A stretch of 64,000 nt of DNA from Owenia fusiformis (lineage: Eukaryota; Annelida; Polychaeta; Sabellida; Oweniidae), in contig CAIIXF020000012.1 in assembly GCA_903813345.2 (NCBI GenBank), forward strand, positions 16,360,020-16,424,019, written 5' to 3'. The number at the start of each line of letters is the position of its first letter. The stretch's first letter is position 1. This document shows positions 19,296 to 40,891 of the stretch, in pieces. The position numbers and the translations under genes are program-made. The notes below the pieces were generated by a model. That model did no database searches, was not told the DNA's origin, and saw nothing but the letters and a program-made list of their open reading frames with translations.

Positions 19296-19560
19296 TCACG
19301 GCAATGTGAACGCATAAACATGGTCACTTAGATAAGGGAACATTCCGAAGAAATTGTTTCCGCCTGCAGTGAGAACAATATACTGCTTCCCATCAATTCT
19401 GTAAGTTATGGGGTTTCCCGCACCCATTCCTGCCATTGGATCTGGTGATTTGTAGAGCAGCTCGCCGGTGTCAATATTAAACACCCGAAGGTGTCGATCG
19501 TCCGTATTACCAGCTATTACGATCCCTCCTGCGGTAACTAGAATGCCGCCAGAGTACCAA
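19296..19560 (-). CDS. Gene B exon 15 (C-terminus and stop)
   Basis: The acceptor is gattctttttcag; the TGA stop is at 19298-19296. It encodes GGILVTAGGIVIAGNTDDRH, LRVFNIDTGELLYKS, ITYRIDGKQYIVLTAGG and ends HVYAFTLP. The M-TY..DGKQY.V..AGG motif is the usual C-terminal signature. Confidence 0.92.
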
Positions 19561-22500
19561 CTGAAAAAGAATCAATTCAGCTTTTGATCAAGATATTGAG
19601 AGAGCTTCGTCTCTAAAGAGATTTTAGTGCTAATGAAACCAGCAAATTACTATGAAGGAAGGGAGACATATTTTGATACATCAAAATTACATTACACGTT
19701 TTATATGCTCTTAATATTCTAGCAAATAATGATATAATGAGTAATTGCCGATTTACAGACCACTTTTATACGGGTTTGACGATACTAATCCCATCGCCCC
19801 TTATCAAAAGAATATATATCAAAAAGTATGATTGAGACAGTGAGGTCGCATTTACCTTGATCCGTCGTCTTCTGTGGATTCTGGAAAGTTGGAAGTTGTG
19901 CCGTGCGGAACGCTCCAAAGTTTACGGCCATTTGTCAGATCCACAGCGTGCAACTCGCCCCATGGTGGTTCGTAACACCTCTCCTTGAGTTTTAGAACAC
20001 CGTAACAATCCGCAAAGGGAACACCGACACTGTCTTTGTACTTGAATGCTTGACACCATGACGGCACCGATGACGAATTTTTGGGTAGCAACTGATAAAC
20101 TAAACATATAATAGTAGAAATGATTTGTCAGTTGCTCACAGATTTTCGATTTAATTTTCCCATTTCCACAAGTTGAAATTAAAAATAAACTGAACAACAC
20201 TGATGTTTATCACACAGATATACATGACAAGTACTGTATCAGTGCTAATTTTGCCTAATCATTTAATTTGCATATTGCCTAATTTTTGCAAGGTTCGGAT
20301 AATTGATTATAATGTCAGAAATATCATTTTCCTAATGTTATCCAATAAGGAGTTTCTTGTCATCAGAAAAATTAAAATTAGGAAAATGAAAATGAAAATT
20401 TGACCACTCGGCAAATTAACCACTCGGATTGCGACGTACCATATTCTATTCATCAGGTGTTGAACTTGAAGAGTTGTCATTTTCACTTTGAGAACACATC
20501 TATATACCACCTTTAACCATTGAGTAATTCTGCTTATGATTTTGGTAAGTGTCCAATTTTCAAACGAATAATTGACATGACACATTATCACCACGAAGTT
20601 CAGAAAACGATGCCTCCACATCAATATGTCACACATCTATGTGGTGACATAAAAACAAATGACTATTTTGTTGAAGCAGTGATAAAATTAGGATAGTATT
20701 TACGATAAGCAAATGTTTGTGTTGCTGCCACGACAATACTTCTATCAGTGTTCAGGGCAACGCTGCCTCCTAGATTCATACCACCTGCTACTCCGGGTAT
20801 CCATAGTGAAGGCTTACTTATTCTTGCGGATGAATATATCTGGAATCGAAACATTTTGATCTGACAGTTACATTAAGTGTTCGTTTCATAAGATTATCTG
20901 ATTATCACTGGTGGGTGTGTCAGTTTGCATTCCAATAAAGTTACATATTCCATAATGACCAATCACAATAAATGTGAGTTCATCTTTCGACCAATTAAAA
21001 TAGTATATAGAGCTATTACTGTAACGGTTTGTACTTATCACTCGGTGTAACCAAATCCGAGAATATGATGATCATTCATAACCATCTTTATCGTTATGTT
21101 ATTGTTACATGTAGGTTCGGGAGAGGGTGTTCGTTATAGTCGTTTACAAATATATTTGCAATGGAATAGAGATTGGGGACATCAATCATTGATGGTCATA
21201 ATATTACACATTCACGTTAAAGTACATGCAAAAACTTAATCTCCCTAATATGGCATACCTCTCCAATGGGATCAACCCCAGAACTGTTTATAAAGTCAAC
21301 ACAAGTTTGCTCTTGGTCACTCGTTCTTCCCCATAAATCTTTGCCTGGTCGCAAGTCAATTGAGGTCTTTGCCAATCTCAGGAAATCATCAATAGGGAAA
21401 GGTTGTGTTGGACTCAGGATCTCCCCTGGTACCTAGAGCATTATTTACATTATTGCTTAAGGCCCCCTCACATATGAGCGAAACCCCCTAAATGTCAACT
21501 TGCGTATAATGGCGAATAGAACATGAATCAAATTCGTTCTCATTAGTATATGTACGTGGCAGTACGTCGAACATAGGTGGTGGTGTTCGTTTGGATGCGT
21601 TTGTGAGCGTTTACATCCGTTGAAATTAGTCTTATTCGTCAGAAAATTTTGAACATGTTTAAAAATTTGCAGCGAATAAAAGTTTCGCTTGTCATTCGTT
21701 GTAATGCGTTTCAATGCGTTAACGATCGGTAAATCTTCGCATAGGCTGCGTCAACGTACCTCAAGTCGCGTTACACGGGTCCATATCTGACTTTTCCTGT
21801 CAGGTCATGATTACCTAATTTGGTTTCAAGCGAACGAGAACGATCCCATTACGAATCTTTGCGACAGTTGGCGAACATGTACGAACAGTAACGAATACTT
21901 ACGCATTGAAAATGGAGGTATTGCTTCTGTAAATAGCTTTAAAATCTCGTTTTAAAGTTATTTGTATAGATTTAGCTTTTCGAAAAGCTTCGTTCAGATT
22001 CGGTAGCATACGCACAATTGCGCTTAAGTTCGCATGTTTGCGTTGTTAATCGCTGAGGTGGAGATCAACGTTTTTGCGAGACCCAACGCATCTCTTGAAT
22101 AAAAGTAGCCATTCGTCACACTTCGTAAATCATTCCCAACAAATAGTTATCTAACATTACCAATCGTTATGTTTTGAAATTATGTAACAGATGTTGTAAC
22201 ATTCTCTCCCAAGATTCATCAGAATTGACAAAGGACGAGTGTCTTTAAGACCCCATATTAGCCCCCAAGATATTTAAAAGAAATCGTATAGGTTATCAAA
22301 GAAGGGAATTTGTTTGATAACCAGATCCAAAGATTAGGTCATTCTGACATTTATATTTCAAAATATAGGTCATTCTATTAACATGTATAGAATGACCTTT
22401 TGAAGGAAATATCACTCTTTTCACATCATTATTGTCACTGTTTCTAATTAATTATTATCAAAATAATCATTATTTACAGTCCTTCAAGACTTTTTTAAAT

Positions 22501-25500
22501 TGATCTTCTTGGTGAATAGTGACAAAGCGTAATGGGCAACATTCACATTCAATATTGACTAGTGATCTTCTTTATACTTCAATGAGATGTGTCAGAAATG
22601 TGTCAGAAAAGAATATTGAGTTTATTAATTTACATCACAATGAGAAAGAACAAGGGGCAATATTACAAAACACATTAAGTAATTGTATGTATGTATATTT
22701 ATTTATTTAAGTGCCACGTATAGAATACCCAGCCTATTTTAGGCTTATCGGGCGCATTGTACAATATATTTGAAAACAATATTATAAGATTATTAAACGA
22801 AGCTTGCTCTTTTGATAAGAGCAGCATTCAGGAATTTTCCAGTATGGCGCACTAATGTAAAATCATGTAATAAAAGTTTCAAAAGTTCATCATCAATAAT
22901 AAGTTCTTGTTTTTGTAAAATACGTTTAACAGACAAAAATAAGTCATCTCGTAAGTTGTTATATGATGGGCATACTAGTAAAAAGTGGAACTCGTCCTCA
23001 ATAATGGATATACGAGGGTTGATCATAAAGTTCTCATAATATCTCTCTAATTTCTTTATTTTTCAATATATTCCAATGAAATTTTCACAGAATGTACAGC
23101 ATAGAATGTCTTATTAATTCAGCAAAAAATATTTAGTTTAACAGAAATATTAAATAAGAAACGGTTGCCATAGTAGCGGGAAATCAAGGCACCCGGGGCA
23201 AATAAAAATAATTGAGAGATTGAGCTTCATTAACCATGTTTACACACATAATAAACTCTCATGAATTTCCAAACACGTTAAAATGTTAACTTTAATATGT
23301 TGTAAAGTGCTTTAACAATTAAATAAATCAATCGTGTAAATTAGGTGATGTCATAGGGGATGATTTCATGCTTCATTAGATGTGATACCAGAGTCTGACA
23401 CTCAAAGCTGATGATCAGAAATGACTGAGTAAGAGAATGCAATAGATGTAGAGATCTTCAGAAAAATAAAATTCATACTGATAAAATGTTATGTTAAGTT
23501 TATAAGATCCTTTGGTCAGACTAAACATGATCTAAAACAAATATATTTTTAAGATATCAACAAAGATACCCCCTGTTTGTGGTCTGTACATGTTAAAAAT
23601 GAACTAAAGGGGCAAAATCAATTTTCCTCAGGATATTTGACAAAAGTCATGGGGTCTAACAGTCACTTCTAATGAAGCATAACAATCATCCATTATGCGA
23701 TCACACAATTCACATGACCATTATAACATATCACAACAGTCAAGAGCACATATTATTATATTATTTGACAATTTAATGTGTTTGATAGCTTATTTGACAA
23801 CTTATTATGTATTTAAACATGGTTAATGGGGGCTATTCTATCTAGTTTTTTTATTTGCCCCGGGTGCCTTGATTTCAAGTTACTATGGCAACCATTTCTT
23901 ATTTAATGTTTGTGTTATTCTAAATATTGTTTGCTGGATTAATATACCATTCCATGCTGCACATTCTGTGAAAATTTCATAGAAAAGTATTGAAAAATAA
24001 AGAAATTAGAGAGATATTATGAGAACTTTATGATCAACCCTCGTATTATCATTCTTACAATGTAAGCAGTCTCTGGTCAACTGGGGTGGATCTATATCTT
24101 CCATTCTCCAGCATTAATGGTAGTGTGCCTGATCTTGATTTTGCAAGCAATGATCTGAATGTCCTTGGTAAACAGTTCTTGACATAATCTTCTGTTCCAA
24201 ATGATGTTTTAAATGTCCTATAAGTCCTTAGTTTTGGCATATTGGCGATCTTAAGTTTCTTCGATGTATCGTTGTAGTTCCGCTGTTTTAACAGAATCGA
24301 GGATGAGTAATAAACTATCTCCAAAGTGTCTCGTTTCATATTCACGTAGCAAATTAGCAGATATAAATATTTTACTTACATCCTTGCACCAACATTTGTG
24401 TCCTAAGATAGCATTTTCATAATCAAAGTCGAAAATTCTTCTAGTCAGCCTATCTCTAGGCATTTTGCTTAGTCTAATAAAGAGTCTCACCATCTAGATC
24501 TCCAATCGGTGTCTGATGTTAGGCGGTATCCATCCCATATCACCGTAAATTGCTGGAAGGGGAGCGTATTTACCAAGGCCAAGAAATGTTCGCATTGCTC
24601 GATTTTGTACTAGCTGTGGTTTGCTAAATTCCTTATATCCCCAAACTCCTGATCCATAGTCCATGATTGGGGCAATTGCACTGTCGTTGGTTAATTAACA
24701 AGTCAAAAATGCATATCAATTAATTATATATTGATCTGCTTTCTTGAGATCAATTGCTCACATACAGTTTGCATTAAAGTGGCAGTAAAATACTGAATTT
24801 ATTCACATCACAGTGAGGAAGCACAAAAGGGGACATTTGAAAACACATAAAATATAACAATTTCTAAAAGGTTACTCTGGACTTAAAACAAGTGTTGTAC
24901 TTCAATCTTTAAAAGTGTAGATGAGCACATTCATGTGTTTGTTCATCACAAGAGACTCTATGAGCCATCATTATTTTCTTTAGATGACAACATTTCAGGC
25001 ATATCTTTTGAATTTAAAATGTCAAACTTTGTGCATTCCTTTTGCTTTTATACCGTGTGCACATGAACCTACAGCCTTACTCCCAACTGGGCATGAACAA
25101 CATCCAGTGATTGTATCAGTACTATTACATACATCTCTGGATCTGAGTTGTGCTCCACCCATATAATGTATAGTGAGATTTCGAGAACACAAACCTTGTA
25201 CTGGATATTTACACAAATGAGGCCATATGTTTCTTTCTTAACAATGATGGTATATATCCCATATACTTGAAGGTGGTTGTCTGTGTATCGTTTAGATTGG
25301 TTGGCTTGATATACACCAAAGTGAGTTGACATACATCATCTTCAGTAAAATGCCCTCAAGAGAGTCCACTGCGATTTAGATGTGACCCTCTGTCTCCATA
25401 TAGGGGGCACTGAGTGATTGCAGTTCACTCATACAGCTCCCTTTGCTTTGGGCAATTTATTAGCAAATGTTATTTTCCTATCTCCTGATTGTGCCAAATA

Positions 25501-28500
25501 TTTTTTTCTGCACAATAAAGTTGAGCTGGATTTTTTTTAAATATGATCATCTCAATTTTGCATGTACATTTATATGAATGTATAGAAAGGAATTATATGT
25601 TATGTTGTTTAGAGCCATGGTGAAATACACGATTCTCTAGAAGTCATGCTTCAGTGCAAGCACACATATTAGTTCATGAAATGATCATATGAAGTAAGAA
25701 AATATACAAAAAAATAAATCAATTGTCACAATCATTATTTGGATTTTTAAAATGGCTGACATCATTTTACTAGAAATTGCATAAAAGTTCCATTTTTGCA
25801 CAACGCCTGGTCCTTACCTAGATTTTTACATATCTCAAGAAGTACCTTAGAAGTACACTATTCCCTTACTACGTTTAACTTTACTAGGTAAGAACCAGGC
25901 ATTATATGAACAAAGCAAAAAATAAGTAGGTCAACACAATTGCAAACATAACTAATCCCCACTCAATGACTATTGAAATATGACTATTTATTTGTATGGA
26001 ATATTAATCCAGTGAGTGTATAGAGTTATACAAATAAGCAATTGGACATCTGCCAAGTTTGGTTTATACATTCTGGAGACATTTTCTGAAACTGATAAAA
26101 ATGCCTATTCTCACAGGAAGTGATACATACATGTATCTCCAAAATCGACCAAAATATACATACATCGGGAATATTGAATGCTTTTTATTAGTATTTCTTA
26201 AAATATACATATTTATCTACAATTTGATCCTAGATATCAAGGATATTAACGACAATGCATTTTTCAAAAAATGTTAAGTGACCCAAGGGATGTCTATAGC
26301 CATTCGTTCTTTGCCCCATGTGCCAGGCTGCGTTTTTTATGGATTCACTCATATGTGAGGGGGCCTTAAACACGTTTTGTATCTATCAGAATAGTTCAGG
26401 CGGAAATTAATTGAACGATTCCGTACATGGATTTTAATAATGTGTTTTTAACATCTGTCAGACATCGTTTGTAAAATCCATCCAATCATTTGGCTCCTCA
26501 ATTACATACATCATCTGACCCGGATATCGTGTTATTTCGTTTGGTACACATTCTAAGCCCGGGGTAATAACCATTATTATTCTACATTTTTTAAGGTACA
26601 GCAATAAATACCTTAAATACATTTATATTATGTTTTTGTAAACATTGTTATTAAAAAAGATTTTAATAAGATAACTGTAACTGTGAAGGATTATCATTGC
26701 AGTTAAGACTTATGTATCTCTAGGAGCATTACTTGTGGTCGGTAGTACATTATCCTTACTCCTGCATTCTAAATGAAATTTTCAACTATCGAGCCACAGA
26801 TATTGAGACAATCTTATCCGGGAAAATGCAGATGTTTTTGGACAGAATCTCCGAAAATTACGTATAGTATGATAGTATTATTGCCCTTTTAACTCATTTT
26901 TCAAACCAATCGAAATACATAGATGAATTATTTTGATCAGGGCTAAGCCCCTGACATACCTCTGAGAATGAAGGAACTGGTTGTTCTTTTATGCCAAATA
27001 CAGGTTCACCGTTTGTGGCGTCTAACACAAATATGAATCCCATTTTAGTACCCTGAAATTTTACCAACATGCATATACTTAAGAAATTCAATCCACGATT
27101 TCCAGAATTAAGGACGGGAATTTTAATAAGACTTTCAACGAGAACAGACCCCCGAATTCAAAAGCTAGCATACATGGGTGCATTCAATCACTCACTCACA
27201 ATTCATTTCGTCTTGTGCTTAACTTTTTTCAAAATTGAAAAAATGTCACTAAAATATCATTGCACTAAAGCAATTTCACCAAGAAGAACAAAATGCAACC
27301 TTCGCAAGGTCAACGTTTTGACCTGCATTAGCACCTTCTTGGCTAATCATATGATAATTTTGTTCACTGAAATGCTAGCTTGAAATCACTATAAATTGAT
27401 GATCGGGTTGGTAACTTCACCTGAATCTTAAAAACAGTCATCAAATTCCCGATATAAATTCATATCAATGAACAAAAGAAATTAACATATAATGAAGTAT
27501 GTACAGTAATTAGAGGTTATGTCACTATCGTGGCATATATGCCCGAGGTCACAGTGATATATGGCCCGACCTTGGGAGGGACATTGATCTCTGAGAACCG
27601 AGGGCATATGTGCCACGATAGTGACATAAACGATTTATAACATACCTATGATGATGAAGACTGGTCAGAGAGTACCGTTTTCTTATAGAATTGACAAACA
27701 AATGGTTTGAAAATGATTGAAATGAGTTTAGAAAAATTGCTCGCGCAGTTTTATCTTCGATTGATTGGTTATGACGTCAGCGCCTTGACCAATTAGAAAG
27801 TTAGCGGGCGCGGGCTTTTCAAAAGTTATATTGGCCCGCTGTCTTGTGTACACTTTGCACTATACATCATCACAGGTATGTTATAATGTATGTTATTAAA
27901 TATCGAGGTTGGTGAAGCGATAATGTTGGAATATAATGGGATGATCTATAATGTAATTGGTGGTAGTTAGCCATGTATGCAAACCCAATTCTAAGAGGTT
28001 TTCCGAAATAAGCTTTAAGGATTAAGGACGGCTTAAAAACTTAAGATTAAGTTTAGAAACGAATTTCGATTTGTAAACATATAAATTGATCTTGAATGAT
28101 ATTATTTTTATACGTTTAGCTACAAAAGATATTTAAACTGATTTGAATTAATAACTATTGTTTTAACGATTAAGGAACAAAATTCAAATCAACAGGCTTT
28201 GGTGTGCTAAAAATAAGGACTTACGGTCCAAACTTATGGAGGGACTTTACTTCGTTACCTGGATAATAACTTTCCGTCTCTTGCCATCGCGTGTTATTTC
28301 ACCAACTATTGGTTGGTTGTTTATGTCCTGAAACAAGTTTCATTATAATGCACGTGATGTGAAAATATTAATAAATTTGATTCATATTTTCTCCATAAAT
28401 CCCATTTTGATAGTTTGATTGGTTAGAGATGTGTTCATTTTGATAAACAAGGTCCTGCAAAGCATGGTAATTTCTTTTAACTTAGACGTCTACCTAGTTT

Positions 28501-31500
28501 ACATGCTATGTTAGATGACAAGTAGTAACTATACGATAAAGAAAAAGGAGGATAATATATACGCGACCAAAACAATGGCAGCTCACTTTTCTGCAGTGGG
28601 TTGTTTTTTACCCCAGTCTCATTGATTTAAATAAATTAAAACTAAGACTAAGATACCCCTAAAATGGTATTTAGAATAATTTGCATGGTCAAACTTAAAT
28701 ACACTGAATGACCTTAGTTTTAATCCAAATGACCTAATTTCATTTAGGATATGTTCATAATTGATAAAAGTAACTATTTCCATGTTATTTTCAATGATCA
28801 CCGTATTCATTGATTGAATTAAAACTAATATAATTACTTTCTCTTCATAATTCCTAGCTTATTGATATTTTGATATATCGATTGATTGAATGGTCAACAA
28901 ACTTAAAATAGTCATGAGTTTAGACTAAGATATCCCTAAAATGATATTTAGAATAATTTGCATGGTCAAACTTAAATGCACTGAATGACCCTAAGTTTTA
29001 ATCTCAATTCTAATTTTGTTTTGGATATGTTCATAATTGATAAAAGCAACTATTTCCATGTTATTTTACAATGAAACCTTCGGGGGCATATTTAGGTACA
29101 TGGGGTAACGGATCCTTTGGATATTTTTGTTTTTTCTTTGATTTTTAAAGCAATTTACACGTAAGCCCACCGAAACAGTGACAGTTGACAGTCCTTTAGG
29201 CCATAGAAAAACAAACTACTGTAACCTGATAGATTGTGCGATGACATTCGAGCTTAGTTTTTTTCGTTTCAGTGTAGACATTTAATTGGTTACTTACATA
29301 GTCAAAAACATCATGTACAGTTGGTGCAATTTCCATTCAATCAGAAAAGTCATGCATTTAACTTACGTAGTCAAACACATCATGGTGCACAAATTGCCTG
29401 AACCAGACGATTTCCCCATTGCTGACATTCAAAGCAACAAGTGAATTGCAGTAGTGGTTGTCACCGATTCTATGTGTTCCCATGTGATCAATATTAGCGG
29501 AACTTGTTGGAAGGTAAACCAGGCCTAAAACCCAAAATAAATAAAAACACGAGTAGACACGCACAATGGCCGAAAAGATAATTTTAAAAGTTTAAGAATC
29601 CATTTTCTGACTATTGAAAACGGTTTCTACCAATACTCACCAACACGAATCTACTTGTTGAGACTTGATCAATTTGAGATTTCTAATTTTCACATATTTT
29701 GTTATGCATCAGTATATCTTTCGATCTAGATTTTTTCAAAAAAATGTAGAAAAGTCGGTCGACATTGAAGTTAACCCATAAAGGTATATACCTTGTACGC
29801 CCATTTCTCTTTTTTGCTTACTATAATTAGCAAAGTATGGGATAATATGGTCAATATTGATTATTTTGAGTTTGTAATCTTTAGTAGAAAGTAATCTGCC
29901 GACTTTTGAGGTTATAAAAACATGCTAACATTTACCCCCTCCTATCGACTTATAGCCAATCTTTCTGGCAAGAGCTTATCATTAGATTTTGTTTTATTTT
30001 CTATATATCTTTTTATTTGTGATTAGAGCAGAACATTTTACAAAAGTTTTACAGAGCCACAGGGTGTTCAAAAAACGCAACTCAAAGAAATCGCTATATC
30101 TTGAAAAATACTAATCCAATTATGTTCATATTTTCAGGATAGAAAGAAGAGACTGTGTATGTATAGCCCATTTTGTTAATTAGTTGTAAAACATGAAATC
30201 TTTGACACTTGCTCAAAAGACAGTTGTACTAGCAAAATACGAAAAACGTGAATGGAAAATTACTATATCTTGGAAAATACTAAATTTAATTATGTTCATT
30301 TTTTCAGGAAAAGAAAGAAGAGACTGTGCATGTATAGCTTCTGTCGTCAGTAAGTTGTAAATTAAAACATGATGCCTTGGACACCTGCTCAAGTGACAGT
30401 TGTACTAGGAAAATATGAAAACGCAGTCAGAGGTGACTGCCACAGCAATAAAACCAAATAACTTTCTAACCATGGTGTTTTGGCACTTCAAATTTAGCAC
30501 AAATTATCCTCATTCAATGCGTGGTAAATTTGTGGAGTTTCAATAAAATCACTCCAAGGACTTTACAGTCATGGTCAAAATGGCTTCATTAGGACAAGGT
30601 TATACTTGTAAAAAACTTAAGAAACCCTTTCTGGTCTTTGCTGGAAAGTACAAGTCATTAATTTTGAAATTCAAAATTTTACCACTTGAGATGCTGAAGG
30701 ATGTAGGATTGGTATAACAAATTGGCAATGAACTCACAATTTTTTCACTTGGCACCTTTTGAGGTGGATCCCGGCTATGGCATTAATGGTTGAGAAATAG
30801 GAATTGAAACCAGCCATAGTTTTCTCCTGATGATTATTGTGAATTGTTGTGTTTTATGGATTATGATGATGGCTTAGCGAACGGATGTTGACCCTTTGAA
30901 TTGCCTATGGACTTCGAGACTGGATTTTATCTATCCCACATCATTTGAGATTGATTACTCTATATTTTATGAGTACTAGTATCTACAACTATTTTTGATG
31001 TTATGAGTATTGGCTATCAATTTTTCAATTTTTCTTCAACATGACTTCAGTATGAATGAAATGTCCCTTGGTGTTCGGGTCCTGGATTGTGATATTGGTT
31101 CTCGATTGGAGGGGAGAGGGGGATGTTAGACATTGTTTCTTTTCACGTTAGATCATGGTTTTGGGATATATCGGATGTCCCAAAAAATGAGACACTTTTT
31201 GCCAAGTATTTTCTCGGCAACTAATAAACCAAATACACGGAGAATTTGTACAAATTAGCCTGATAGTATCATTAGCAAGTTGTACAAATATAAAAAAGAT
31301 CAAGTAAATATTGTGCGAGTAAGAAGAGATTCAAAATAGCATGTCAAAAATCACCATACCGGAGCTCTGCGATGAGACCTCTGTTATAGTGTTTGTACCA
31401 GCTATCAGGTGATAGCATTAATTTGTAAATAAGTCAAAATAGCTTGTCTGTGTGTCATTTCTACTTAATTCATTTCATTCTTCCCAAATATCCAAAATGC

Positions 31501-34500
31501 ATTCATTCTTAAAATTCATTGGAGGTGATATTGTTAGAATAAATACAGAATGGTATTTTGCATGAAAAGGATTAATAAGTGAGATTTACATCAATATTGG
31601 TTATTTTTACATACTGTTTTTAATTCAACAATTCACACATAATATCAAGCCAATCTAAAGTGCCTCAAGTAAAGTTTTCAAATAATTTGGCTCATCTATT
31701 GCTGAGAAATCACTTGTCAAATTCCTTCCCATTTTTTGGTACAAACGCGATGAAAATTCTCATTGTATTGCTCCGGTATGGGACATTTTGACATGCTATC
31801 TTGAATTTCTTAGTACTCATATAACATTTATCTGATCTTTGTCACATTTCTGTACCTTGCTAATGATACTCCTGGGCTACTTTGTGTAAGTTTTCAAAAA
31901 ATTTGGTTCATCAGTTGCCGAGAAAATACGTGGCAAAAAGTGTCTCATTTTTTTGGGACACCCGATATAGGGTCTATTTTTCTTATGACAGACTTACACC
32001 TACAGTTTGCTTTTCTTGTTGGGTTTCCTGAAAGTTTTAGTCACCCTTCCCTTATGGCATTTGTGCTTATATAGTCTCCCTGAACCAGGGCGTTTGACTG
32101 TGATTTAAAAGCATTTCAACCATAACTGTAAAGTCCCTGAAGTGATTTTGATTTCACTCTACAGATTTACCATACAGTGAATGAAGATGATTTTTGCCAA
32201 ATTTGAAGAGCCAAAACACTATGGTTAGGAAGTTATTTAATTTTTTGCGGTTGCAGTCACCCCTGACAGCGTTTTTCGTATTTTCCTAGTCAACTATCTT
32301 TTGAGCAGGTGTCCAGGGCATCATGTTTTACAACTAACCATTTACAGGAGCTGTACATACACAGTCTCTTCTTTATTTCCTGAAAATATGAATATAATTG
32401 AACCAGTATTTTTCAAGATATAGCGATTTCTTCGGGTTGCGTTTTTAACACCCTGTACTTGCATTGAATGGGCCTATGTGCAGAGTGTGGCATGGCCCCA
32501 AGGAACGCTACCCTCTAGCTTTCTTGGGTCACCCTGTCTATATCGACTCGGTAAACTGCAGTATATGTATGTATCTTACCGAGTTCGTTATCGCCACTTA
32601 AGGGAGCCCATGCGTTACCAGCGCCCACATTTTCTGTGCCATTGCTGTACGTTTTCATAGCTGGGTCGTTTGGGTCCGTGGGTACAATCACGAACTTCCA
32701 CATGAACTCTCCAGTCCGCGCATGAAAGGCTGGGACAACCCCCTTAGGAGTATCCAAGTCGCAGCTGTCATCGATGGCTTCAATACAAACACATACAAAT
32801 GCATCTTTCAATGTAAAGCAACGTTCACACCAACGGCGCTTTGATGGCGCTTTAATGCGACGTGCAAAGCGCCGTTGATGGGCGTGATTTTAATAAATTA
32901 TGTTCATAAATACAAAGCCAATACCAAAAAATTATAGGAGCTACTCACTTCTTCTGTCTTTTAAGTACATTTTCATGAATATTTACCTTGTCCAAGGATC
33001 AAAACATCTCTCACAACTGCTGGTGGATTCAGATACCACATGCATTTCACAGTCGGACTTGCTACCTTTAGATCGACAATCCCCTACAATATGTAATACG
33101 ATCGCGACTGCAATACATAATGATAAATATATCTTGTGTATTACTTAATAAATTTTCGTTTATTTTCTTTGGATATGATATGATAATGATATGATAATAA
33201 GACTCTGCTGAACTACATGATAGACTCCCATCAATGCGTTTGGCAAACAGAAGTTTCCACTTGATAGCATATCAAAGCTTGACAATGTATGAATCTTAAG
33301 TTTGCTTATGGAGGGCGTTGTTAAAGTTAAAACCAATTTGTAAAAGAACTAGGCTGCGTTTTTTAACTGCCCGCGGAGCTAGTGAATTGCATAATATTTA
33401 AGTTTTCCTCCTCGGTATCACGAAAAAGAACAATAATCCCCCTATGTGCAAATTACCTGGTCACACGTTTCCAACAAAAACAGCAGATCCAAGCGGACTT
33501 ACACCGCTAATTACGATGTGTCAATCTTGTCGGCTAACCGCGTATGTAAACCACGCCGGCTTGTTGCTAATGCACCACAGGAGTTTGATTGCAATTAACC
33601 ATGATGTCTTTCAAAAAAAATTACACAAGTGTAAATGCGCTTGAATGAGAAACACATGAGCATGTAATGAGCACTGTAGGGCTTATTGTTGTTTTTAGTG
33701 ATGCCTGGGAGAAAACTCATTAAAATATTGCGTAATTCACTAGCACCGCAGGCATACAAAAATACAGCCTAATGAAATGTAAATTAAACAATAAATAGAC
33801 TCGGCTAACATAACCCAAACGCAGTGCGTATGTGCATGTATGAAGATGTTTATACCATTCATACAATTGCATAATCAACAATGGCACTGCAACTGAAATT
33901 TTACCTTATCACCAAATTCCGTGCAATTCTGCCCAGTTGCAGCATCAACTGCTAGCAGTCTGTGATCTATCGTAGGGAGATAGATCGAACGTTTACACAG
34001 TGTACCACGTGACTTGGTTGGGTCAACCCATGATGCCACACCCCGACATGTGTTTGCATAGCCAACTCTGGAGACAAAAATTTGTTATTGCCGAACCTGA
34101 TAATTTATTAAGGTATCACATAGCCCGAGTAATATGAATAATCCAAAAGTTTGCAATCGGAAGTTGACATTTAAACTATTTTTAATTCAGAAGGATCGAC
34201 AACTTCATCCAGAATGCGAAAAGTCGTTTTTCTGGTGTTTGCAGCTTATCATATTTGAATCGTAACAAAGACAACGATCGATTCTATGATTTTTGGCAAA
34301 CATATACAATAAGCTCCGATTTTATTCTGCCTATTGCAAAAGACCTCAATCGCTCTGCAATTTCGATTCGGTCTTTTAACAATGATCAGAAAAAATCATC
34401 GGTCATTTATCGCGCCATAAATTATGACATCTCGGTCTTTATCCAATTGTTGAATAGTTTCAAACTACCAACGCAGTACCGCGTATATAACCCATGATTG

Positions 34501-37500
34501 TATATAGAAATTCTGAGTAAAGCTAAGTTCACACCAACGGCGCTTTGATGGCGCTTAAAAGCGCCGTGCAAAGCGACTTTGCACGCCACTTTAAAGCGCC
34601 GTTGGTGTGAACTTAGCTTTAAGGTTTAGTTGATAATAATTCACCGCAAGTGGGAACAATGGAACTAATAACGTTCTCGAATTTTCTCAATAACGTCAAT
34701 TAGCCATCTTAAGCCATTTAGCCATCTTAAGCTAAGTTCACACCGACGGCGCTTTGATGGCGCTTTAAAACGGCGTGCAAAGCGGCTTTACACGGCGCTT
34801 TAAAGCGCTATCAAAACGCCGTTGGTGTGAACTTAGCTTTACGGTGGACTAAGACCGCCACAAAGGTTTGAAAAGATTTGAGAAGCGATATGTTCTAATT
34901 CTTCTGCCATCTTGAATCAAGAAAGTAAACCTTAACATGCATTTCACACACCTATGGACTGTTACCCCATCATTGTTTCTCCAGACCTCGACACCAGTTG
35001 TTGGGTTTACTGCAACAATAGCTCACCATGGGGTGCAAAGTATCAATAGATCATTTCCTAGGATACAAAAATTAAACTGTGGGTCTCAATTTTCTTCAAC
35101 CTTTGCAGTCTCTCCACTTATGATCATGAATTATGATAAACATCATATGATGAATGTGCTCTACTTTCATTCAATTTAAGTTTTGTATTAATATCTCTCA
35201 TGTTTTATTTTTTAAGAATTTAAGAATGCAATGGAAAATTAAACTAGGCCCCCCTCTGGCGTGCCTCAATGATGAGAGAACATGTACTACTTACATCTTG
35301 GTGATAAAATACAAACTAGGAAATCAGAGACATTAATTATCTGTTATGAAAAATACTAAAATAATACCATGCTTCGAGCCGTCATCCACCATGATAGGAG
35401 CCTGTTGATCCTTTAGAAATAACCTGTCAGCTGCATACCCCCAGGGACTAGGGCCATATCGGAATGTCCAAGCTATCGTCAGATTGCCGACGTTGCCCGC
35501 ATTTATCTCGTCCAATTGTGAGTACCGCGTACCACCCAAGAGGTTACCATAGTGCTCCCAATATTCTAGAAAAATTTCGCACCACTATTTGAGCCAGGCC
35601 AGAGGAAAAGGGGTCTTATCACATATTTTTCAATATTTTGATTTTTTGTTTATCTTAAAAAGCACAAAGATACTTTTCAAATGAGCCATGATGTCTTAAC
35701 AATTTTTTCTTGCAGATATAGACCAAAAGACTGATTTGAATTTAGCACATTTTCCTCTTAATCTTGAGCACATTTTTGGCTCTGTAGCACAATTCTAATT
35801 TTTGTGATAAGACCGGTTTTCCAATGGCCAGGCTCATTTAAAGTGCACCTAATGAAGGCATTGCTAGAAGCTACTCAGATTAGGGCTGCGTTTTTGAACT
35901 TCCCGCGGTGCAATTCAGTGTATTGCATAAAATATATAATAAGTATTCCCCCTATGTATCACGAAAAAGAACCATATAATGAGCCCAAGCGTTGCAAATT
36001 ATATGCTTGCACGTTTTCAACAAGAACAGTTCATCCAAGCGCACTTAAACCGCTAATTACGTTGTACCAATCTTGTCCGCTGCTTGTGTGTGTCAACCGC
36101 GTCGGCTTGTTGCAAGTGCACCACAGGAGCTCGATTGCAATAAACCGTGGTGTCTTTCAAAATAATTATGTGAGTGCTACCGCGCCTGAATGAGCTGTTT
36201 TGTTGAAAACACACGTAGCGAGCATGTAATGAGGACTGCAGGGCTTATTGTTCTTTTTAGTGATACCTAAGGAGAAACCTTATTAAAACATTACGCAATG
36301 TACTAGCACTGTGGGCATACAAAAATACAGTCCAATTCTTGCAAATAGAAACCAGTCAGTATATTTCAAGAAGTATTGATTTGAGTAATGATATAGAATA
36401 TATGTAACTCAATACACTGTGTTTATAAGAAAAAGTTAATTAATGAAATTAGAAAAATGGTGTCACTCAATGGATATACTACTGATTATACATACCATTC
36501 AAAAGAATGCAATCACTCATTTTGAAGAATCCTTTTTGTTGTGAAATTAATTTGCCAGTGTTGTCAACTAAGATATGAATGAATTTTCGGGGTATTCCTC
36601 TAGAAGAGTTGATCTTTATCTAAATAAATAAATCCTAGGTTTAATGATTCAGTACTAATACATTATGTTATATTATCAGATTAGTCTCGGAATTTTGATC
36701 CCAGATATACATGGACAATATTAAGGGTATTTTTGCTATTATCAGTTATACATTGACACCAATGAAGTATAGTTTCCATCAACTGTTTTAGTAACAAATG
36801 TTTACAAATTGTGAGAAATTCTAGGATTAATTTCTAAACTACAGGGTGACCCAAAAAACGGAACCCTCTAAAAGTGTAATAATTTCTTAAATATCTGTCC
36901 TATCAACCCAATTTTTTATGTACAATATAAACTAGAATCTATGGATGATAACATGGTATCAAGTTTGTTACGCAAAATTGATTATTTGTGATATCATGGA
37001 TGATCTTAGAATGTCTCCAATTTCGGAAAATCAACATTGAGACTAAATAAAAATGAAGAATAGGCAATGGTAAAGCACCTGGTAAAAGATCAGATGACTT
37101 AAATTCCTGGCCTCTGAGCAAGAACACCTTAAACGCTGTACGATATTCCATCCAATGAATTCATTGAGAAATCATTGAGAGAATGATCAGTAGAATGATC
37201 AGTCAAGACCATTGCATTACATGTGATTTTAAAGTCAAATGTTAAATAATGGGCTGAAAGAGGAAGAAAAGAGAATTGTTAAACACCTGATTGGAAAAAA
37301 TGATCAGCTTACACCTATCGAGGGAGGTTTCTAAGAATGAGGATATGGGAAATTATTTCATTTTTGGAGGGTTCTGTTTTTTGGGTCACCCTGTATATGG
37401 CATATAAATCCCTTTGGTTTCATTCAGGTATATTGCAAGTGTATTATTAAGTACCTTAATACCGAAAATGTCTCCTCTTTTGACAAAATATTTGCATTTC

Positions 37501-38302
37501 CATTCATCAACATAGCCATACCTTGCGAGATAATCTGCTTTTACCTAAATAATGTATAAACGTCAATGTATTTTTTTATTTGGCATCTTTTATGTACTCC
37601 ATACATTTGAGATATAATTTGATGAAGATTTGGACATCTTTTTCGCAAAGGTTCCTAAAATGGGATTAAAAAATCTTCATACGTTTTTATTAAAAAAATC
37701 TCAGAAAAGTCACAAAGAATATATTAGACATTCGGAATCTAAGTGAAAATATGCATTTGTCAGAACAATATTTGAAGACACAGTTTTACAATGCTATAAC
37801 CATGCCTCAAATTATAGTCCAAGACCGACATCTTATACAGTTTGCCAAAAAGATACAAAGGATAAGGTGTCAAGTATATTAGAAGTCTCAAAAAAAGAAA
37901 TAAGTAAGATGAAGAAAAACTAGTTTAGCCTCAAGAAAAGGGGAATTGGGGAAATCTGCCTCTACGAGTATATTCAATTGTATACATATGTTGATCACCC
38001 CTAGAAGATTCTGATTGTTGATTTAGTCAAATCACTGGATTCCTTAATGTAGCCTATAATTGAAAGTTCATCACATTTTTCAGTTTTAAATACCATTTTG
38101 TATAGAAGTTAAACTTATATTTCGTGTGAAAATACCTCAAATAACTTACAGTTTTGCATATTTCGAAAAGGTCCTTGCTGTCGGTCACCTTATAATAATC
38201 AACTCCGTTACATTTGCTCTTCATCTGCTGTTTGAATAAGGATATGTTTCCTGCGAAGCAACATGTGAGACATGACATTACAAAGAAGTGGATTACAGAC
38301 AT
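19296..38302 (-). CDS. Gene B: PQQ-dependent quinoprotein dehydrogenase (membrane glucose dehydrogenase/PVA dehydrogenase-like), fifteen exons
   Basis: Fifteen minus-strand exons join in phase into 2250 nt (749 aa plus stop) if one TGA is set aside. The family oxidises alcohols or sugars with the cofactor pyrroloquinoline quinone in an eight-bladed propeller. Residues 1-17 (MSVIHFFVMSCLTCCFA) look like a signal peptide; residues 18-122 are unrecognised. From residue 123 the enzyme is clear: GGTRYSQLDEINAGNVGNL, TCRGVASWVDP, GVVPAFHARTGEFMWKF, GAGNAWAPL, LVYLPTSS, VHHDVFDYD, GTKMGFIFVLDATNG, VPGEILSPTQPFP, CYEPPWGELHAVDL and the C-terminal DGKQYIVLTAGG. Seven x-x-A/F-x-x-x-T/S-G-x-x-x-W/F propeller repeats are visible. 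Asp422 and Lys449 lie 27 residues apart, the spacing I recall for E. coli mGDH Asp466/Lys493. Codon 200 is TGA (see exon 5). Substrate is not predictable; neighbours give no PQQ biosynthesis genes. Confidence 0.9.
19856..20099 (-). CDS. Gene B exon 14
   Basis: The acceptor is atatgtttag and the donor GTAAAT; 244 nt, phase 1 to 2. It contains CYEPPWGELHAVDLTNGRKL, with the family's C..PPWG.L.AVDL.TG...W, preceded by a less conserved loop with two cysteines. Confidence 0.9.
20704..20839 (-). CDS. Gene B exon 13
   Basis: The acceptor is tttcgattccag and the donor GTAAAT; 136 nt, phase 0 to 1. It encodes PSLWIPGVAGGMNLGGSVAL and VVAATQTFAYR/L. This matches the P.L..PG..GG.NWGG...D......V.T motif of PQQ enzymes. 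Confidence 0.9.
21259..21432 (-). CDS. Gene B exon 12
   Basis: The acceptor is taatgctctag and the donor GTATGC; 174 nt, phase 0 to 0. It begins VPGEILSPTQPFPIDDF and contains DLWGRTSDQEQTC, the family's PGE.LSPTQPFP.........D.WG......C region. The 5.5-kb intron before it holds the TTAA-flanked element. Confidence 0.9.
22795..24690 (-). pseudogene. Non-LTR retrotransposon (LINE) ORF2 C-terminal remnant, split by a MITE
   Basis: Minus-strand frames read MDYGSGVWGYKEFSKPQLVQ, RAMRTFLGLGKYAPLPAIYG, GDMGWIPPNIRHRLEI, then RDRLTRRIFDFDYENAI and, after the MITE, IIEDEFHFLLVCPSYNNLRD. This is the connector and zinc-ribbon end of LINE ORF2. At least one stop and several frame shifts are present, and the RT core is missing, so it is dead. 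Confidence 0.8.
23011..24045. mobile_element. MITE with about 230-bp TIRs, inserted in the LINE remnant
   Basis: TACGAGGGTTGATCATAAAG at the left and its complement at the right. The inverted arms continue through GAAATTTTCACAGAATGT and CAAGGCACCCGGGGC (23011-23245, 23805-24045). The TA ends suit a mariner-type element, and the LINE frame resumes on either side. The internal 560 bp has no open frame. Confidence 0.85.
25022..25216 (-). pseudogene. SWIM-like zinc-finger fragment of a transposase
   Basis: The minus strand encodes TGCCSCPVGSKAVGSCAHG, close to the CxCxxG...GxCAH finger at the end of several eukaryotic DDE transposases. The upstream frame is interrupted. It may be what is left of the enzyme that moved the surrounding 4.9-kb element. 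Identification is by motif only. Confidence 0.45.
25803..25905. repeat. Short foldback
   Basis: CGCCTGGTCCTTACCTAG and CTAGGTAAGAACCAGGCAT are inverted around about 65 bp. Confidence 0.6.
26960..27052 (-). CDS. Gene B exon 11 (PQQ-contacting Lys)
   Basis: The acceptor is gtaaaatttcag and the donor GTATGT; 93 nt, phase 0 to 0. It encodes GTKMGFIFVLDATNGEPVF and KEQPVPSFSE. The Lys of GTK is 27 residues after the catalytic Asp, as expected for the family. Confidence 0.9.
27513..27890. mobile_element. Two linked foldbacks in gene B intron 10
   Basis: The first hairpin (27513-27630) has arms GTCACTATCGTGGCATATAT and GCATATGTGCCACGATAGTGAC. The second, overlapping one pairs TTATAACATACCTATGATGATG (27636) with CATCATCACAGGTATGTTATAA (27864). 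The pattern suggests one composite MITE or two neighbours. Confidence 0.65.
28259..28327 (-). CDS. Gene B exon 10
   Basis: The acceptor is aaacttgtttcag and the donor GTAACG; 69 nt, phase 0 to 0. It encodes DINNQPIVGEITRDGKRRKV and IIQ, the D..AQP.L.......G....V.. segment between the catalytic Asp and Lys. Confidence 0.85.
28646..29075. repeat. Tandem duplication, about 277-bp period
   Basis: The phrase from GACTAAGATACCCCTAAAAT through AACTATTTCCATGTTATTTT occurs at 28646 and again at 28923 with few changes. Confidence 0.8.
29296..29340 (-). pseudogene. Duplicated end of gene B exon 9 with splice donor
   Basis: Minus strand here reads CATGATGTTTTTGACTATG followed by a GTAAGT-like donor. 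This is a diverged copy of CATGATGTGTTTGACTACGTAAGT at the end of exon 9, 70 bp away. No acceptor or full exon accompanies it. Confidence 0.6.
29367..29524 (-). CDS. Gene B exon 9 (catalytic Asp)
   Basis: The acceptor is tttgggttttag and the donor GTAAGT; 158 nt, phase 1 to 0. It encodes LVYLPTSSANIDHMGTHR, GDNHYCNSLVALNVSNGEIV and FVHHDVFDY. The second Asp of HHDVFD corresponds to the catalytic base of E. coli mGDH as I recall the alignment. Confidence 0.9.
29525..30058. other. Gene B intron 8, unclassified part
   Basis: AT-rich intron DNA without recognisable structure. Confidence 0.3.
30059..32456. mobile_element. 2.4-kb long-TIR element in gene B intron 8
   Basis: Its ends ACAGGGTGTTCAAAAAACGC and GCGTTTTTAACACCCTGT are inverted. 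The arms run about 500 bp inward, with AAATCGCTATATCTTGAAAA, AGAAGAGACTGTG and ACTTTACAGTCATGG each matched by complements at 32110-32440. A copy of the first 100 bp repeats directly at about 30245. The middle shares sequence with 8040-8530 and holds a second element. Confidence 0.8.
31169..31967. mobile_element. TA-flanked TIR element nested in 30059-32456
   Basis: The ends TATCGGATGTCCCAAAAAAT and TTTTTTTGGGACACCCGATA are inverted; arms continue through GAGACACTTTTTGCCA and TTTTCTCGGCAACT. The related sequence at 8150-8180 lacks it (an empty site), which fixes the borders and supports a TA or TATA target duplication. Confidence 0.88.
32580..32777 (-). CDS. Gene B exon 8
   Basis: The acceptor is gtttgtattgaag and the donor GTAAGA; 198 nt, phase 1 to 1. 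It contains TPKGVVPAFHARTGEFMWKF, PTDPNDPAMKTY and GAGNAWAPLSGDNELG. These are the propeller repeat and the N-WAPMS-DEELG motif near the cofactor. Confidence 0.9.
32814..32885. mobile_element. Partial GCGCTTT foldback MITE
   Basis: It starts CGTTCACACCAACGGCGCTT like the complete copies at 34518 and 34727, and ends after AAAGCGCCGTTGATGG. It lies 37 bp before exon 8 of gene B. Confidence 0.7.
32987..33065 (-). CDS. Gene B exon 7
   Basis: The acceptor is gtcgatctaaag (weak pyrimidine tract) and the donor GTAAAT; 79 nt, phase 0 to 1. It encodes VASPTVKCMWYLNPPAVVRD and VLILGQ, corresponding to the YY.TSPP.V...V.V.G strand. The frame is fixed by both neighbours. Confidence 0.75.
33350..33771. 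mobile_element. TAGGCTGCG MITE, copy 1 (422 bp)
   Basis: The ends TAGGCTGCGTTTTT and AAAATACAGCCTA are inverted, followed by CTAGTGAATTGCATAATATT and AATATTGCGTAATTCACTAG. TA borders. A second copy is at 35880-36333, and its right part recurs at 38413 in the tandem duplicate. Confidence 0.85.
33905..34067 (-). CDS. Gene B exon 6
   Basis: The acceptor is ttttgtctccag and the donor GTAAAA; 163 nt, phase 2 to 0. It encodes YANTCRGVASWVD, IYLPTIDHRLLAVDAATGQN and CTEFGDK. This is the CRGV..W......C..RI...T.D.RL.ALDA.TG..C..FG signature of the mGDH-type family. Confidence 0.9.
34518..34622. mobile_element. GCGCTTT foldback MITE, complete (105 bp)
   Basis: It is almost a perfect palindrome: TAAAGCTAAGTTCACACCAA at one end and TTGGTGTGAACTTAGCTTTA at the other, with GGCGCTTT/AAAGCGCC words between. 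Confidence 0.88.
34727..34841. mobile_element. GCGCTTT foldback MITE, second copy (115 bp)
   Basis: Same ends as the 34518 copy (AAGCTAAGTTCACACC and its complement) and the same internal AAAGCG words. It is about 105 bp from its relative and 110 bp from gene B exon 5. Confidence 0.88.
34952..35057 (-). CDS. Gene B exon 5, with in-frame TGA
   Basis: The acceptor is ttttgtatcctag and the donor GTGTGT; 106 nt, phase 1 to 2. It reads GNDLLILCTPW, then TGA (35025-35023), then AIVAVNPTTGVEVWRNNDG, the expected first propeller repeat. The family pattern suggests Gly at this place, so GGA to TGA is one base change. A second acceptor (gctattgttgcag, AG at 35014-35013) has the same phase and would skip the stop with loss of about 15 residues. 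It may be a null allele, a sequencing error, or an exon that uses the inner acceptor. Confidence 0.75.
35368..35565 (-). CDS. Gene B exon 4 (start of PQQ propeller)
   Basis: The acceptor is gcgaaatttttctag and the donor GTATTA; 198 nt, phase 1 to 1. It encodes EYWEHYGNLLGGTRYSQLDE and then NVGNLTIAWTFRYG, the classic N-terminal signature of PQQ dehydrogenases (GGD..GTRYSPL.QIN..NV..L..AW). It ends MVDDGSKH, where the family has a short strand leading into the first propeller repeat. Confidence 0.9.
35880..36333. mobile_element. TAGGCTGCG MITE, copy 2 (about 454 bp)
   Basis: Clear relative of 33350-33771 across its whole length, with the same terminal inverted repeats. The tandem duplication breakpoint (35933) is inside it. 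The 129-codon frame that crosses it has no coding support. Confidence 0.85.
36496..36619 (-). CDS. Gene B exon 3, proximal copy
   Basis: The acceptor is tttatttag and the donor GTATGT; 124 nt, phase 0 to 1. It encodes INSSRGIPRKFIHILVDNTG and ends SDCILLN. Together with exon 4 the junction reads ILLN-EYWEHYGN, which leads into the PQQ domain. Confidence 0.7.
36840..37395. mobile_element. TA-flanked TIR element (556 bp) in unit 1
   Basis: The ends TACAGGGTGACCCAAAAAAC and GTTTTTTGGGTCACCCTGTA are inverted, with CGGAACCCTC/GAGGGTTCTG following. It lies in gene B intron 2. Confidence 0.88.
37455..37544 (-). CDS. Gene B exon 2, proximal copy
   Basis: The acceptor is cattatttag and the donor GTACTT; 90 nt, phase 0 to 0. 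It encodes VKADYLARYGYVDEWKCKYF and continues to GIK. This N-terminal region has no family I recognise. Confidence 0.65.
38150..38302 (-). CDS. Gene B exon 1, copy proximal to the catalytic exons (signal peptide)
   Basis: ATG at 38302-38300; the donor GTAAGT follows 38150. The 51 codons start with a 17-residue hydrophobic signal peptide ending CCFA before GNISLFKQQ. An internal acceptor (tgttgcttcgcag) lies exactly at the predicted signal cleavage site and would give phase 1, so this could instead be an internal exon spliced from 47227. I prefer the first-exon reading because the signal peptide is open and in frame. Confidence 0.65.
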
Positions 38303-38975
38303 CGCATCCCCAGGACTCCAAGGTTGTAAATAAGCAGAAAGTCGTAAAAATTGAGGACGTTACATTGTAAATGATCTATGGTTATTTAAACCGATAAAAG
38401 TTAAAGATTGATTATATAATAAGTATTCCCCCTATGTATCACGAAAAAGAACCATATAATGAGCCCAAGCGTTGCAAATTATATGCTTGCACGTTTTCAA
38501 CAAGAACAGTTCATCCAAGCGCACTTAAACCGCTAATTACGTTGTACCAATCTTGTCCGCTGCTTGTGTGTGTCAACCGCGTCGGCTTGTTGCAAGTGCA
38601 CCACAGGAGCTCGATTGCAATAAACCGTGGTGTCTTTCAAAATAATTATGTGAGTGCTACCGCGCCTGAATGAGCTGTTTTGTTGAAAACACACGTAGCG
38701 AGCATGTAATGAGGACTGCAGGGCTTATTGTTCTTTTTAGTGATACCTAAGGAGAAACCTTATTAAAACATTACGCAATGTACTAGCACTGTGGGCATAC
38801 AAAAATACAGTCCAATTCTTGCAAATAGAAACCAGTCAGTATATTTCAAGAAGTATTGATTTGAGTAATGATATAGAATATATGTAACTCAATACACTGT
38901 GTTTATAAGAAAAAGTTAATTAATGAAATTAGAAAAATGGTGTCACTCAATGGATTTACTACTGATTATACATAC

Positions 38976-39099
38976 CATTCAAAAGAATGCAATCACTCAT
39001 TTTGAAGAATCCTTTTTGTTGTGAACTTAATTTGCCAGTGTTGTCAACTAAGATATGAATGAATTTTCGGGGTATTCCTCTAGAAGAGTTGATCTTTAT
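38976..39099 (-). CDS. Gene B exon 3, distal duplicate copy
   Basis: Copy of 36496-36619 with a change KLIS to KLSS. It ends in phase 1. That phase also fits the internal acceptor of exon 1 in the proximal copy, so a long in-frame product carrying the N-terminal segment twice is possible. Confidence 0.5.
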
Positions 39100-39319
39100 C
39101 TAAATAAATAAATCCTAGGTTTAATGATTCATTACTAATACATTATGTTATATTATCAGATTAGTCTCGGAATTTTGATCCCAGATATACATGGACAATA
39201 TTAAGGGTATTTTTGCTATTATCAGTTATACATTGACACCAATGAAGTATAGTTTCCATCAATTGTTTTAGTAACAAATGTTTACAAATTGTGAGAAATT
39301 CTAGGATTAATTTCTAAAC

Positions 39320-39875
39320 TACAGGGTGACCCAAAAAACGGAACCCTCTAAAAGTGTAATAATTTCTTAAATATCTGTCCTATCAACCCTATTTTTTATG
39401 TACAATATAAACTAGAATCTATGGATGATAACATGGTATCAAGTTTGTTACGCAAAATTGATTATTTGTGATATCATGGATGATCTTAGAATGTCTCCAA
39501 TTTCGGAAAATCAACATTGAGACTAAATAAAAATGAAGAATAGGCAATGGTAAAGCACCTGTTAAAAGATCAGATGACTTAAATTCCTGGCCTCTGAGCA
39601 AGAACACCTTAAACGCTGTACGAAATTCCATCCAATGAATTCATTGAGAAATCATTGAGAGAATGATCAGTAGAATGATCAGTCAAGACCATTGCATTAC
39701 ATGTGATTTTAAAGTCAAATGTTAAATAATGGGCTGAAAGAGGAAGAAAAGAGAATTGTTAAACACCTGATTGGAAAAAATGATCAGCTTACACCTATCG
39801 AGGGAGGTTTCTAAGAATGAGGATATGGGAAATTATTTCATTTTTGGAGGGTTCTGTTTTTTGGGTCACCCTGTA
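39320..39875. mobile_element. TA-flanked TIR element (556 bp) in unit 2
   Basis: Duplicate of 36840-37395 carried by the tandem duplication, so it was present before that event. Confidence 0.88.
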
Positions 39876-39934
39876 TATGGCATATAAATCCCTTTGGTTT
39901 CATTCAGGTATATTGCAAGTGTATTATTAAGTAC

Positions 39935-40024
39935 CTTAATACCGAAAATGTCTCCTCTTTTGACAAAATATTTGCATTTCCATTCATCAACATAGCCATA
40001 CCTTGCGAGATAATCTGCTTTTAC
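39935..40024 (-). CDS. Gene B exon 2, distal duplicate copy
   Basis: Identical in coding sequence and splice sites to 37455-37544, 2480 bp away. Phase 0 to 0. Confidence 0.5.
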
Positions 40025-40628
40025 CTAAATAATGTATAAACGTCAATGTATTTTTTTTATTTGGCATCTTTTATGTACTCCATACATTTGAGATATAATT
40101 TGATGAAGATTTGGACATCTTTTTCGCAAAGGTTCCTAAAATGGGATTAAAAAAATCTTCATACGTTTTTATTAAAAAAATCTCAGAAAAGTCACAAAGA
40201 ATATATTAGACATTCGGAATCTAAGTGAAAATATGCATTTGTCAGAACAATATTTGAAGACACAGTTTTACAATGCCATAACCATGCCTCAAATTATAGT
40301 CCAAGACCGACATCTTATACAGTTTGCCAAAAAGATACAAAGGATAAGGTGTCAAGTATATTAGAAGTCTCAAAAAAAGAAATAAGTAAGATGAAGAAAA
40401 ACTAGTTTAGCCTCAAGAAAAGGGGAATTGGGGAAATCTGCCTCTACGAGTATATTCAATTGTATACATATGTTGACCCCTAGAAGATTCTGATTGTTGA
40501 TTTAGTCAAATCACTGGATTCCTTAATGTAGCCTATAATTGAAAGTTCATCACATTTTTCAGTTTTAAATACCATTTTGTATAGAAGTTAAACTTATATT
40601 TCGTGTGAAAATACCTCAAATAACTTAC

Positions 40629-40781
40629 AGTTTTGCATATTTCGAAAAGGTCCTTGCTGTCGGTCACCTTATAATAATCAACTCCGTTACATTTGCTCTT
40701 TATCTGCTGTTTGAATAAGGATATGTTTCCTGCGAAGCAACATGTGAGACATGACATTACAAAGAAGTGGATTACAGACAT
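40629..40781 (-). CDS. Gene B exon 1, distal duplicate copy
   Basis: Near-identical copy of 38150-38302 in the upstream tandem unit. It differs by one visible amino acid (QQIKSKC rather than QQMKSKC). ATG, internal acceptor and GTAAGT donor are all kept. It may act as an alternative first exon, be spliced to exons 2 and 3 of its own copy, or be unused. Confidence 0.5.
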
Positions 40782-40891
40782 CGCATCCCCAGGACTCCAA
40801 GGTTGTAAATAAGCAGAAAGTCGTAAAAATTGAGGACGTTACATTGTAAATGATTTATGGTTATTTAAACCGATAAAAGTTAAAGATTGAT

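Follow-up and report, generated by a model that had tools for sequence, protein, structure and literature searches.

A nonsense-bearing, probably inactivated member of an annelid family of putative secreted quinoprotein dehydrogenases

It has long been disputed whether any animal enzyme truly uses PQQ, and a gene of Owenia fusiformis, read at first from its letters alone, raises the question anew: is it, as that sequence-only reading proposed, a gene for a PQQ dehydrogenase with an intact catalytic pair that an animal received from bacteria and whose product it secretes? We analysed the gene in its window, a stretch of 64,000 nucleotides to which all positions refer unless a contig is named, and then in the context of the whole genome. 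The answer that we favour, and hold with some confidence, is that the annelid has a family of secreted quinoprotein dehydrogenases, to which the window copy belongs as a member that recently, in all probability, became inactive.

Gene model of the window copy

The window copy consists of fifteen minus-strand exons that join in phase between 19296 and 38302, the final one closing with a stop codon. The first three exist twice, and the features on which our argument rests are the following.

35933-40893, strand not assigned: tandem duplication of about 2.48 kb holding exons 1 to 3 (99.4% identity)
40629-40781, minus: exon 1, distal copy, with start codon and hydrophobic N-terminus (splice model; duplicate of 38150-38302)
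39935-40024, minus: exon 2, distal copy (splice model)
38976-39093, minus: exon 3, distal copy (splice model)
38150-38302, minus: exon 1, proximal copy, the start chosen by the sequence-only reading (sequence reading and duplication offset)
37455-37544, minus: exon 2, proximal copy (sequence reading and duplication alignment)
36496-36613, minus: exon 3, proximal copy, start uncertain by two codons (sequence reading and duplication alignment)
35368-35565, minus: exon 4, first of the PQQ dehydrogenase domain, with a phase-1 junction to the N-terminal module (splice model)
34952-35057, minus: exon 5, with in-frame TGA (splice model and paralogue comparison)
35023-35025, minus: premature TGA, codon 198 (paralogue codons CGA in A, B and C, CGG in D)
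33905-34067, minus: exon 6 (splice model)
32987-33083, minus: exon 7 (splice model)
32580-32777, minus: exon 8, with the conserved Asp of the GxxDN stretch and a conserved Trp (splice model and alignment)
29367-29524, minus: exon 9, with VHHDVFDY and the catalytic Asp (splice model and alignment)
28259-28327, minus: exon 10 (splice model)
26960-27052, minus: exon 11, with GTK and the active-site Lys (splice model and alignment)
21259-21432, minus: exon 12 (splice model)
20704-20839, minus: exon 13 (splice model)
19856-20099, minus: exon 14 (splice model)
19296-19560, minus: exon 15, with the terminal stop codon (splice model)

Our model was built with the distal exons 1 to 3, the edges of the proximal ones being read separately, and each of its 14 introns is bounded by GT and AG. 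Together with the terminal stop, this bears out the fifteen exons with matching phases that had been described. For exons 1 to 3 that description had taken the nearer set, which does exist, but had overlooked the near-identical one upstream: the two units of the duplication (35933-38414 and 38413-40893) differ by 10 mismatches over 2484 columns. Exon 3 may begin at either of two places two codons apart (atttag/ATAAAG or aaag/ATC). The exon outline behind the joined translation of 749 amino acids stands as well, but that exact length was not reproduced, as our model has 753 codons ahead of the terminal stop, including the TGA at codon 198. A signal peptide had also been proposed, and read by eye the N-terminus is hydrophobic from the proximal ATG (38302-38300, minus strand).

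The window holds other features besides this gene. Short repeats with inverted copies, 83-90% alike and resembling a miniature transposable element, lie in intron sequence at 34517-34842. On the plus strand, an open reading frame at 4561-5127 carries an AbfB (alpha-L-arabinofuranosidase B) domain (25.9 bits, cut-off 22.8), and tandemly repeated open reading frames (KIFAKFCRAICHQTSSRANLHKF...) form a minisatellite-like array at 57.8-58.9 kb. A run of 500 N at about 49.2-49.7 kb is an assembly gap.

Paralogues, catalytic domain and active site

Searching the whole genome (498,259,871 bases in 525 contigs) with the 633-amino-acid catalytic part of the window copy gave 66 exon matches at E <=10, the window copy's own exons included. 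They define six further loci: A, B and C, clustered on C12 at about 12.08-12.16 Mb, D on C8, E on C6 and F, of two exons, on C3. As a whole-genome query, PF13360 missed the family and found one unrelated place only, on C5. The paralogues were modelled with splice sites picked by script or by eye, GT-AG being required. In D the frame is open over 15 exons, and in A it is open too, with a weak acceptor ahead of exon 10. E is open from exon 4 onward, that is, over the catalytic part, and of all copies it best keeps the bacterial active site; several candidates for its first exon were found, none of them convincing. The others are broken or partial. In C the frame breaks in exon 15, and the place where exon 14 begins is doubtful. 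B comprises exons 1-6 and 15 only, with a break in exon 2; its stretch includes 500 N, and the missing part may be an assembly gap. A relic of a further gene was found at C267:16893-18430: it has exons 1-3, the third with a stop, and some 5 kb further along a remnant of exon 4.

The catalytic part of the window copy, with X at the stop, matches PF01011 over the entire profile (1-595 of 595) with 552.1 bits (E 2.4e-165), and E does so with 562.9 bits; against the curated cut-off of 26.7 bits, the score of the window copy is far beyond chance. Compared by sequence with solved structures, it resembles quinohaemoprotein alcohol dehydrogenases (best 1yiq, E 8.8e-38; 25 distinct sequences at E <=0.001). 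The full quinoprotein fold that had been claimed is upheld at the level of sequence, and so is the motif pair: VHHDVFDYD and GTK are both present, and 27 residues, counted on the translation, lead from the Asp of VFD to the Lys of GTK, residues to which the glucose dehydrogenase literature assigns catalytic roles. Neither a haem domain nor a membrane anchor was seen in the model of the window copy.

Constraint on the family is visible in several ways. A set of 90 columns shows conservation in 94% or more of 50 bacterial proteins. Of these, 76 are retained in the window copy and likewise in A and in D, 78 in E, and 67 in C, which has 14 gaps there as its exon 15 was omitted. In six of ten pairs dN/dS lies at 0.15-0.25, dS being saturated in the four pairs with E, and by this measure the copies other than E are under purifying selection. 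In the active-site alignment the window copy, C, D and E retain the catalytic Asp, the Lys, all three residues of HHD, the NxW Trp and CRG. Copy A has Ser for the catalytic Asp and Gly for the second Asp; HHD, CRG and the Trp of NxW are kept in all five animal copies. Other positions have changed. The Trp of NWGG, which all 50 bacterial rows have, is replaced in the five animal copies by L, I, M, F and L, and D also lacks the Asn of that motif. Beside the conserved Asp, the Asn has been replaced in the window copy, A, C and D and survives in E alone. With these changes, binding of PQQ or of the metal may be altered. Four cysteine columns are shared by all five animal rows and are not the common residue in bacteria, as might be expected for a secreted animal protein.

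The in-frame TGA of the window copy (...LILCTPW-stop-AIVAVNPTTG... in exon 5) aligns with Arg in all four modelled paralogues, and a single C-to-T step at a CpG would explain the change from CGA. With this codon, the protein cannot be read by ordinary decoding; as the stop lies ten exons ahead of the last, decay of the message is to be expected, and a product, if there is one, would be without the active site. As assembled, the window copy is a nonsense-bearing member of the family, and what the assembly presents here is not an intact enzyme gene. We regard the copy as probably inactivated recently, and since at the conserved columns it shows no more decay than A and D, any loss would be very recent. 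A 17-base intron within exon 5 (gtgagc...ttgcag) was considered and rejected as out of frame and too short.

It is possible, though in our judgement unlikely, that the window copy still functions, the TGA being a sequencing or assembly error, a property of one allele, or bypassed in the mRNA through a cryptic acceptor, read-through or recoding as selenocysteine. Every other exon is open, the introns are GT-AG, dN/dS between the window copy and A, C and D is 0.20-0.21, and its count of conserved columns equals that of A and D. Also, an acceptor-like TTGCAG/TAAACC stands just past the TGA, at a distance (48 bases dropped) that would keep the frame. However, its use would cost the protein part of the propeller, 16 codons that are retained in the paralogues, and TTGCAG is absent from the corresponding place in A, B, C and D. 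We rejected selenocysteine, because the paralogues carry Arg and not Cys and in the window no Rfam family scored up to its cut-off, and the skipping of exon 5, whose 106 bases are not a multiple of three, so that the frame would be broken. A different doubt concerns the family as a whole, which could be made of empty quinoproteins that retain the propeller and have lost PQQ chemistry for a binding role, for instance in sugar recognition. Such a role would suit the loss of the NWGG Trp from all five copies, of the catalytic Asp from A and of the Asn next to the conserved Asp, which four copies lack, and NCBIfam has a bacterial group of that name (TIGR04528; E scores 172.5 bits against its cut-off of 650). 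Still, pure binding would not need the Asp, Lys, HHD, CRG and NxW Trp that the window copy, C, D and E keep, and we consider this explanation rather improbable. Our best reading is that D and E, and the window copy before its stop arose, are secreted quinoprotein dehydrogenases.

Bacterial relatives and origin of the family

A first scan of bacterial genomes, made with an alignment of animal rows only, returned 34 stretches, none of them related; the relatives were recovered in a second scan, with bacterial rows added to the query alignment, and at least 594 of the 595 matched stretches listed are relatives. The best 80 bacterial loci are 34-39% identical to the animal gene (36-39% for the ten best), and among the 557 plasmid records with a match the best identity is 37.6%. 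The sequence-only reading had called for a tree with such relatives, and we computed two, the first with 42 of the best 80 bacterial loci, 8 plasmid loci and five animal rows, the second with 33 bacterial and four animal rows. In both, bacterial rows were picked for their similarity to the animal gene and the eukaryotic rows are paralogues of one genome. The root was placed on glucose dehydrogenase rows, four of the six being annotated as such and two assigned by their place in the tree; one was confirmed by TIGR03074 (1033.5 bits). The animal rows form one clade with full support in both trees (100/100 in the second), and its stem measures 1.75-1.86 changes per column. A branch with support 100/99 separates them from the membrane glucose dehydrogenases, and they group with 24 other bacterial rows at 96/96 in the second tree (98 SH-aLRT in the first). 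Rooted in this way, the clade sits among bacterial PQQ dehydrogenases with no named donor. Eleven introns are common to E and to the window copy, A and D, in the same alignment column and phase (one is displaced by a local gap); the two extra introns of E are found in that copy only.

One animal clade on a long stem among bacterial rows, together with shared introns, agrees with a single old transfer, after which introns were gained and the family then diverged. Transfer from bacteria is the simplest reading, not a proven one: the ancient transfer and later splitting by introns that had been suggested agree with the trees, the many introns and the bacterial type of the domain, in trees that sample bacteria and one animal genome. 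Vertical descent of the gene from an early eukaryote, most lineages having lost it since, would account for the length of the stem and for the many introns common to all modelled paralogues, and in an excerpt of PMC13384848 such descent is argued for other eukaryotic PQQ propellers. We nevertheless find it quite improbable, as the animal rows take their place between members of a single bacterial subfamily and not outside all bacterial rows, with the root on glucose dehydrogenases and rows chosen by similarity. That the gene is bacterial contamination of the assembly, an idea to which the bacterial type of the domain might lend colour, has a negligible chance. The introns and the 36.7-Mb contig refute it, paralogues lie on C6, C8 and C12, and the best bacterial identity is 39%. 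The genome bears the marks of an animal, and of an annelid (42 matches for Wnt, 34 for innexin and three over the cut-off for the annelid haemoglobin linker PF16915); a search for COX1 gave no match. A contaminant scaffold had been judged unlikely from the start, correctly so.

With transfer as the preferred reading, the closest known systems are bacterial PQQ dehydrogenases without the long membrane N-terminus. Their best plasmid match is from Agrobacterium sp. T29 (WP_142781859.1) and chromosomal matches lie in Gammaproteobacteria, Acidobacteria, Gemmatimonadota and Bacteroidota. They share with the animal copies the whole of PF01011, HHD(L/I)WDYD, the Lys, CRG and, by position, three conserved cysteine pairs. 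The animal copies differ in their sequence (35-39% identity), their introns, at least four extra conserved cysteines and the changed NWGG Trp; all the modelled ones but E also have a host N-terminal module that the bacterial enzymes lack. The membrane glucose/quinate/shikimate dehydrogenases of TIGR03074 have the same domain, with catalytic Asp and Lys at the same positions. However, the window copy and E score only 430.6 and 441.1 bits against the cut-off of 832.65, the animal proteins are separate in the trees, and by sequence the membrane-spanning N-terminal part is absent from them, matches starting at profile position 157 of 783. Soluble glucose dehydrogenase, for its part, has a different fold. 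Likeness to the eukaryotic cases that follow is by description, not by sequence. Excerpts of PMC9151784 report centipede genes resembling PQQ sugar dehydrogenase as transfers from bacteria and cite work on soluble glucose dehydrogenase for their cofactor. PQQ-dependent activity is reported, in an excerpt of PMC13384848, for the six-bladed pyranose dehydrogenase of Coprinopsis and for Tc323 of Trypanosoma cruzi, which has six nine-bladed domains. Fusions of foreign and host sequence are described in parts of PMC13389597 as HGT chimeras of arthropods; its main text contains neither "PQQ" nor "annelid". In the open-licence literature of PubMed Central we found no description of annelid members of the family.

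The N-terminal module and the proposed history

The module encoded by exons 1-3, of about 120 amino acids, has no Pfam match (best 0.21). In the genome it is found at the PQQ loci, at C267 and in three tandem copies on C12 at about 4.396-4.411 Mb (within C12:4395000-4411200), with very weak matches at two places on C6 (E 0.04 and 0.6). Behind the first tandem copy lie carboxylesterase exons (three open reading frames that match PF00135 with 222, 68 and 45 bits), and in this copy, the one that was read, the junction is in phase 1, as in the PQQ genes. By eye, open reading frames resembling carboxylesterase also follow the second copy and, partly, the third; the first two copies look nearly identical. 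Since the module also heads carboxylesterase genes, its junction with them being likewise in phase 1 where it was read, it has the look of a secretion part of the host that was acquired through exon shuffling, which extends the earlier view of the N-terminus: it is not specific to the dehydrogenase. As E branches first in the trees and no module was detected in it, the module probably joined the dehydrogenase by exon shuffling after E had split off; alternatively, E may have lost it.

The history that we propose would begin with a single ancient transfer from a bacterium whose PQQ dehydrogenase lacked the long membrane part of glucose dehydrogenase. Introns would then have been gained and the host secretion module acquired, and the gene would have been duplicated, with copies decaying repeatedly. 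The working copies would be secreted propeller enzymes holding a metal ion and PQQ taken from the diet or from microbes; they would oxidise a hydroxyl of a sugar or an alcohol, with the Asp as base and the Lys beside PQQ, and pass the electrons on to an acceptor. Binding of PQQ and metal, substrate and acceptor are all presumed here by analogy with the family. A search for PqqC gave no match in the genome, but none in 14 control genomes either.

Tentatively, then, an annelid lineage may have adopted a bacterial PQQ dehydrogenase, joined it to its own secretion module, which also serves its carboxylesterases, and expanded it into an extracellular family that runs on PQQ from food or microbes. 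If this is true, PQQ would in effect be a vitamin-like cofactor for the worm. The shared N-terminal module would be an example of a foreign enzyme domain gaining a host secretion part via exon shuffling. In a worm with published developmental transcriptomes, the family offers defined proteins with which the use of PQQ by an animal can be tested, given the nearly complete bacterial active site of copy E and the purifying selection among the other copies.
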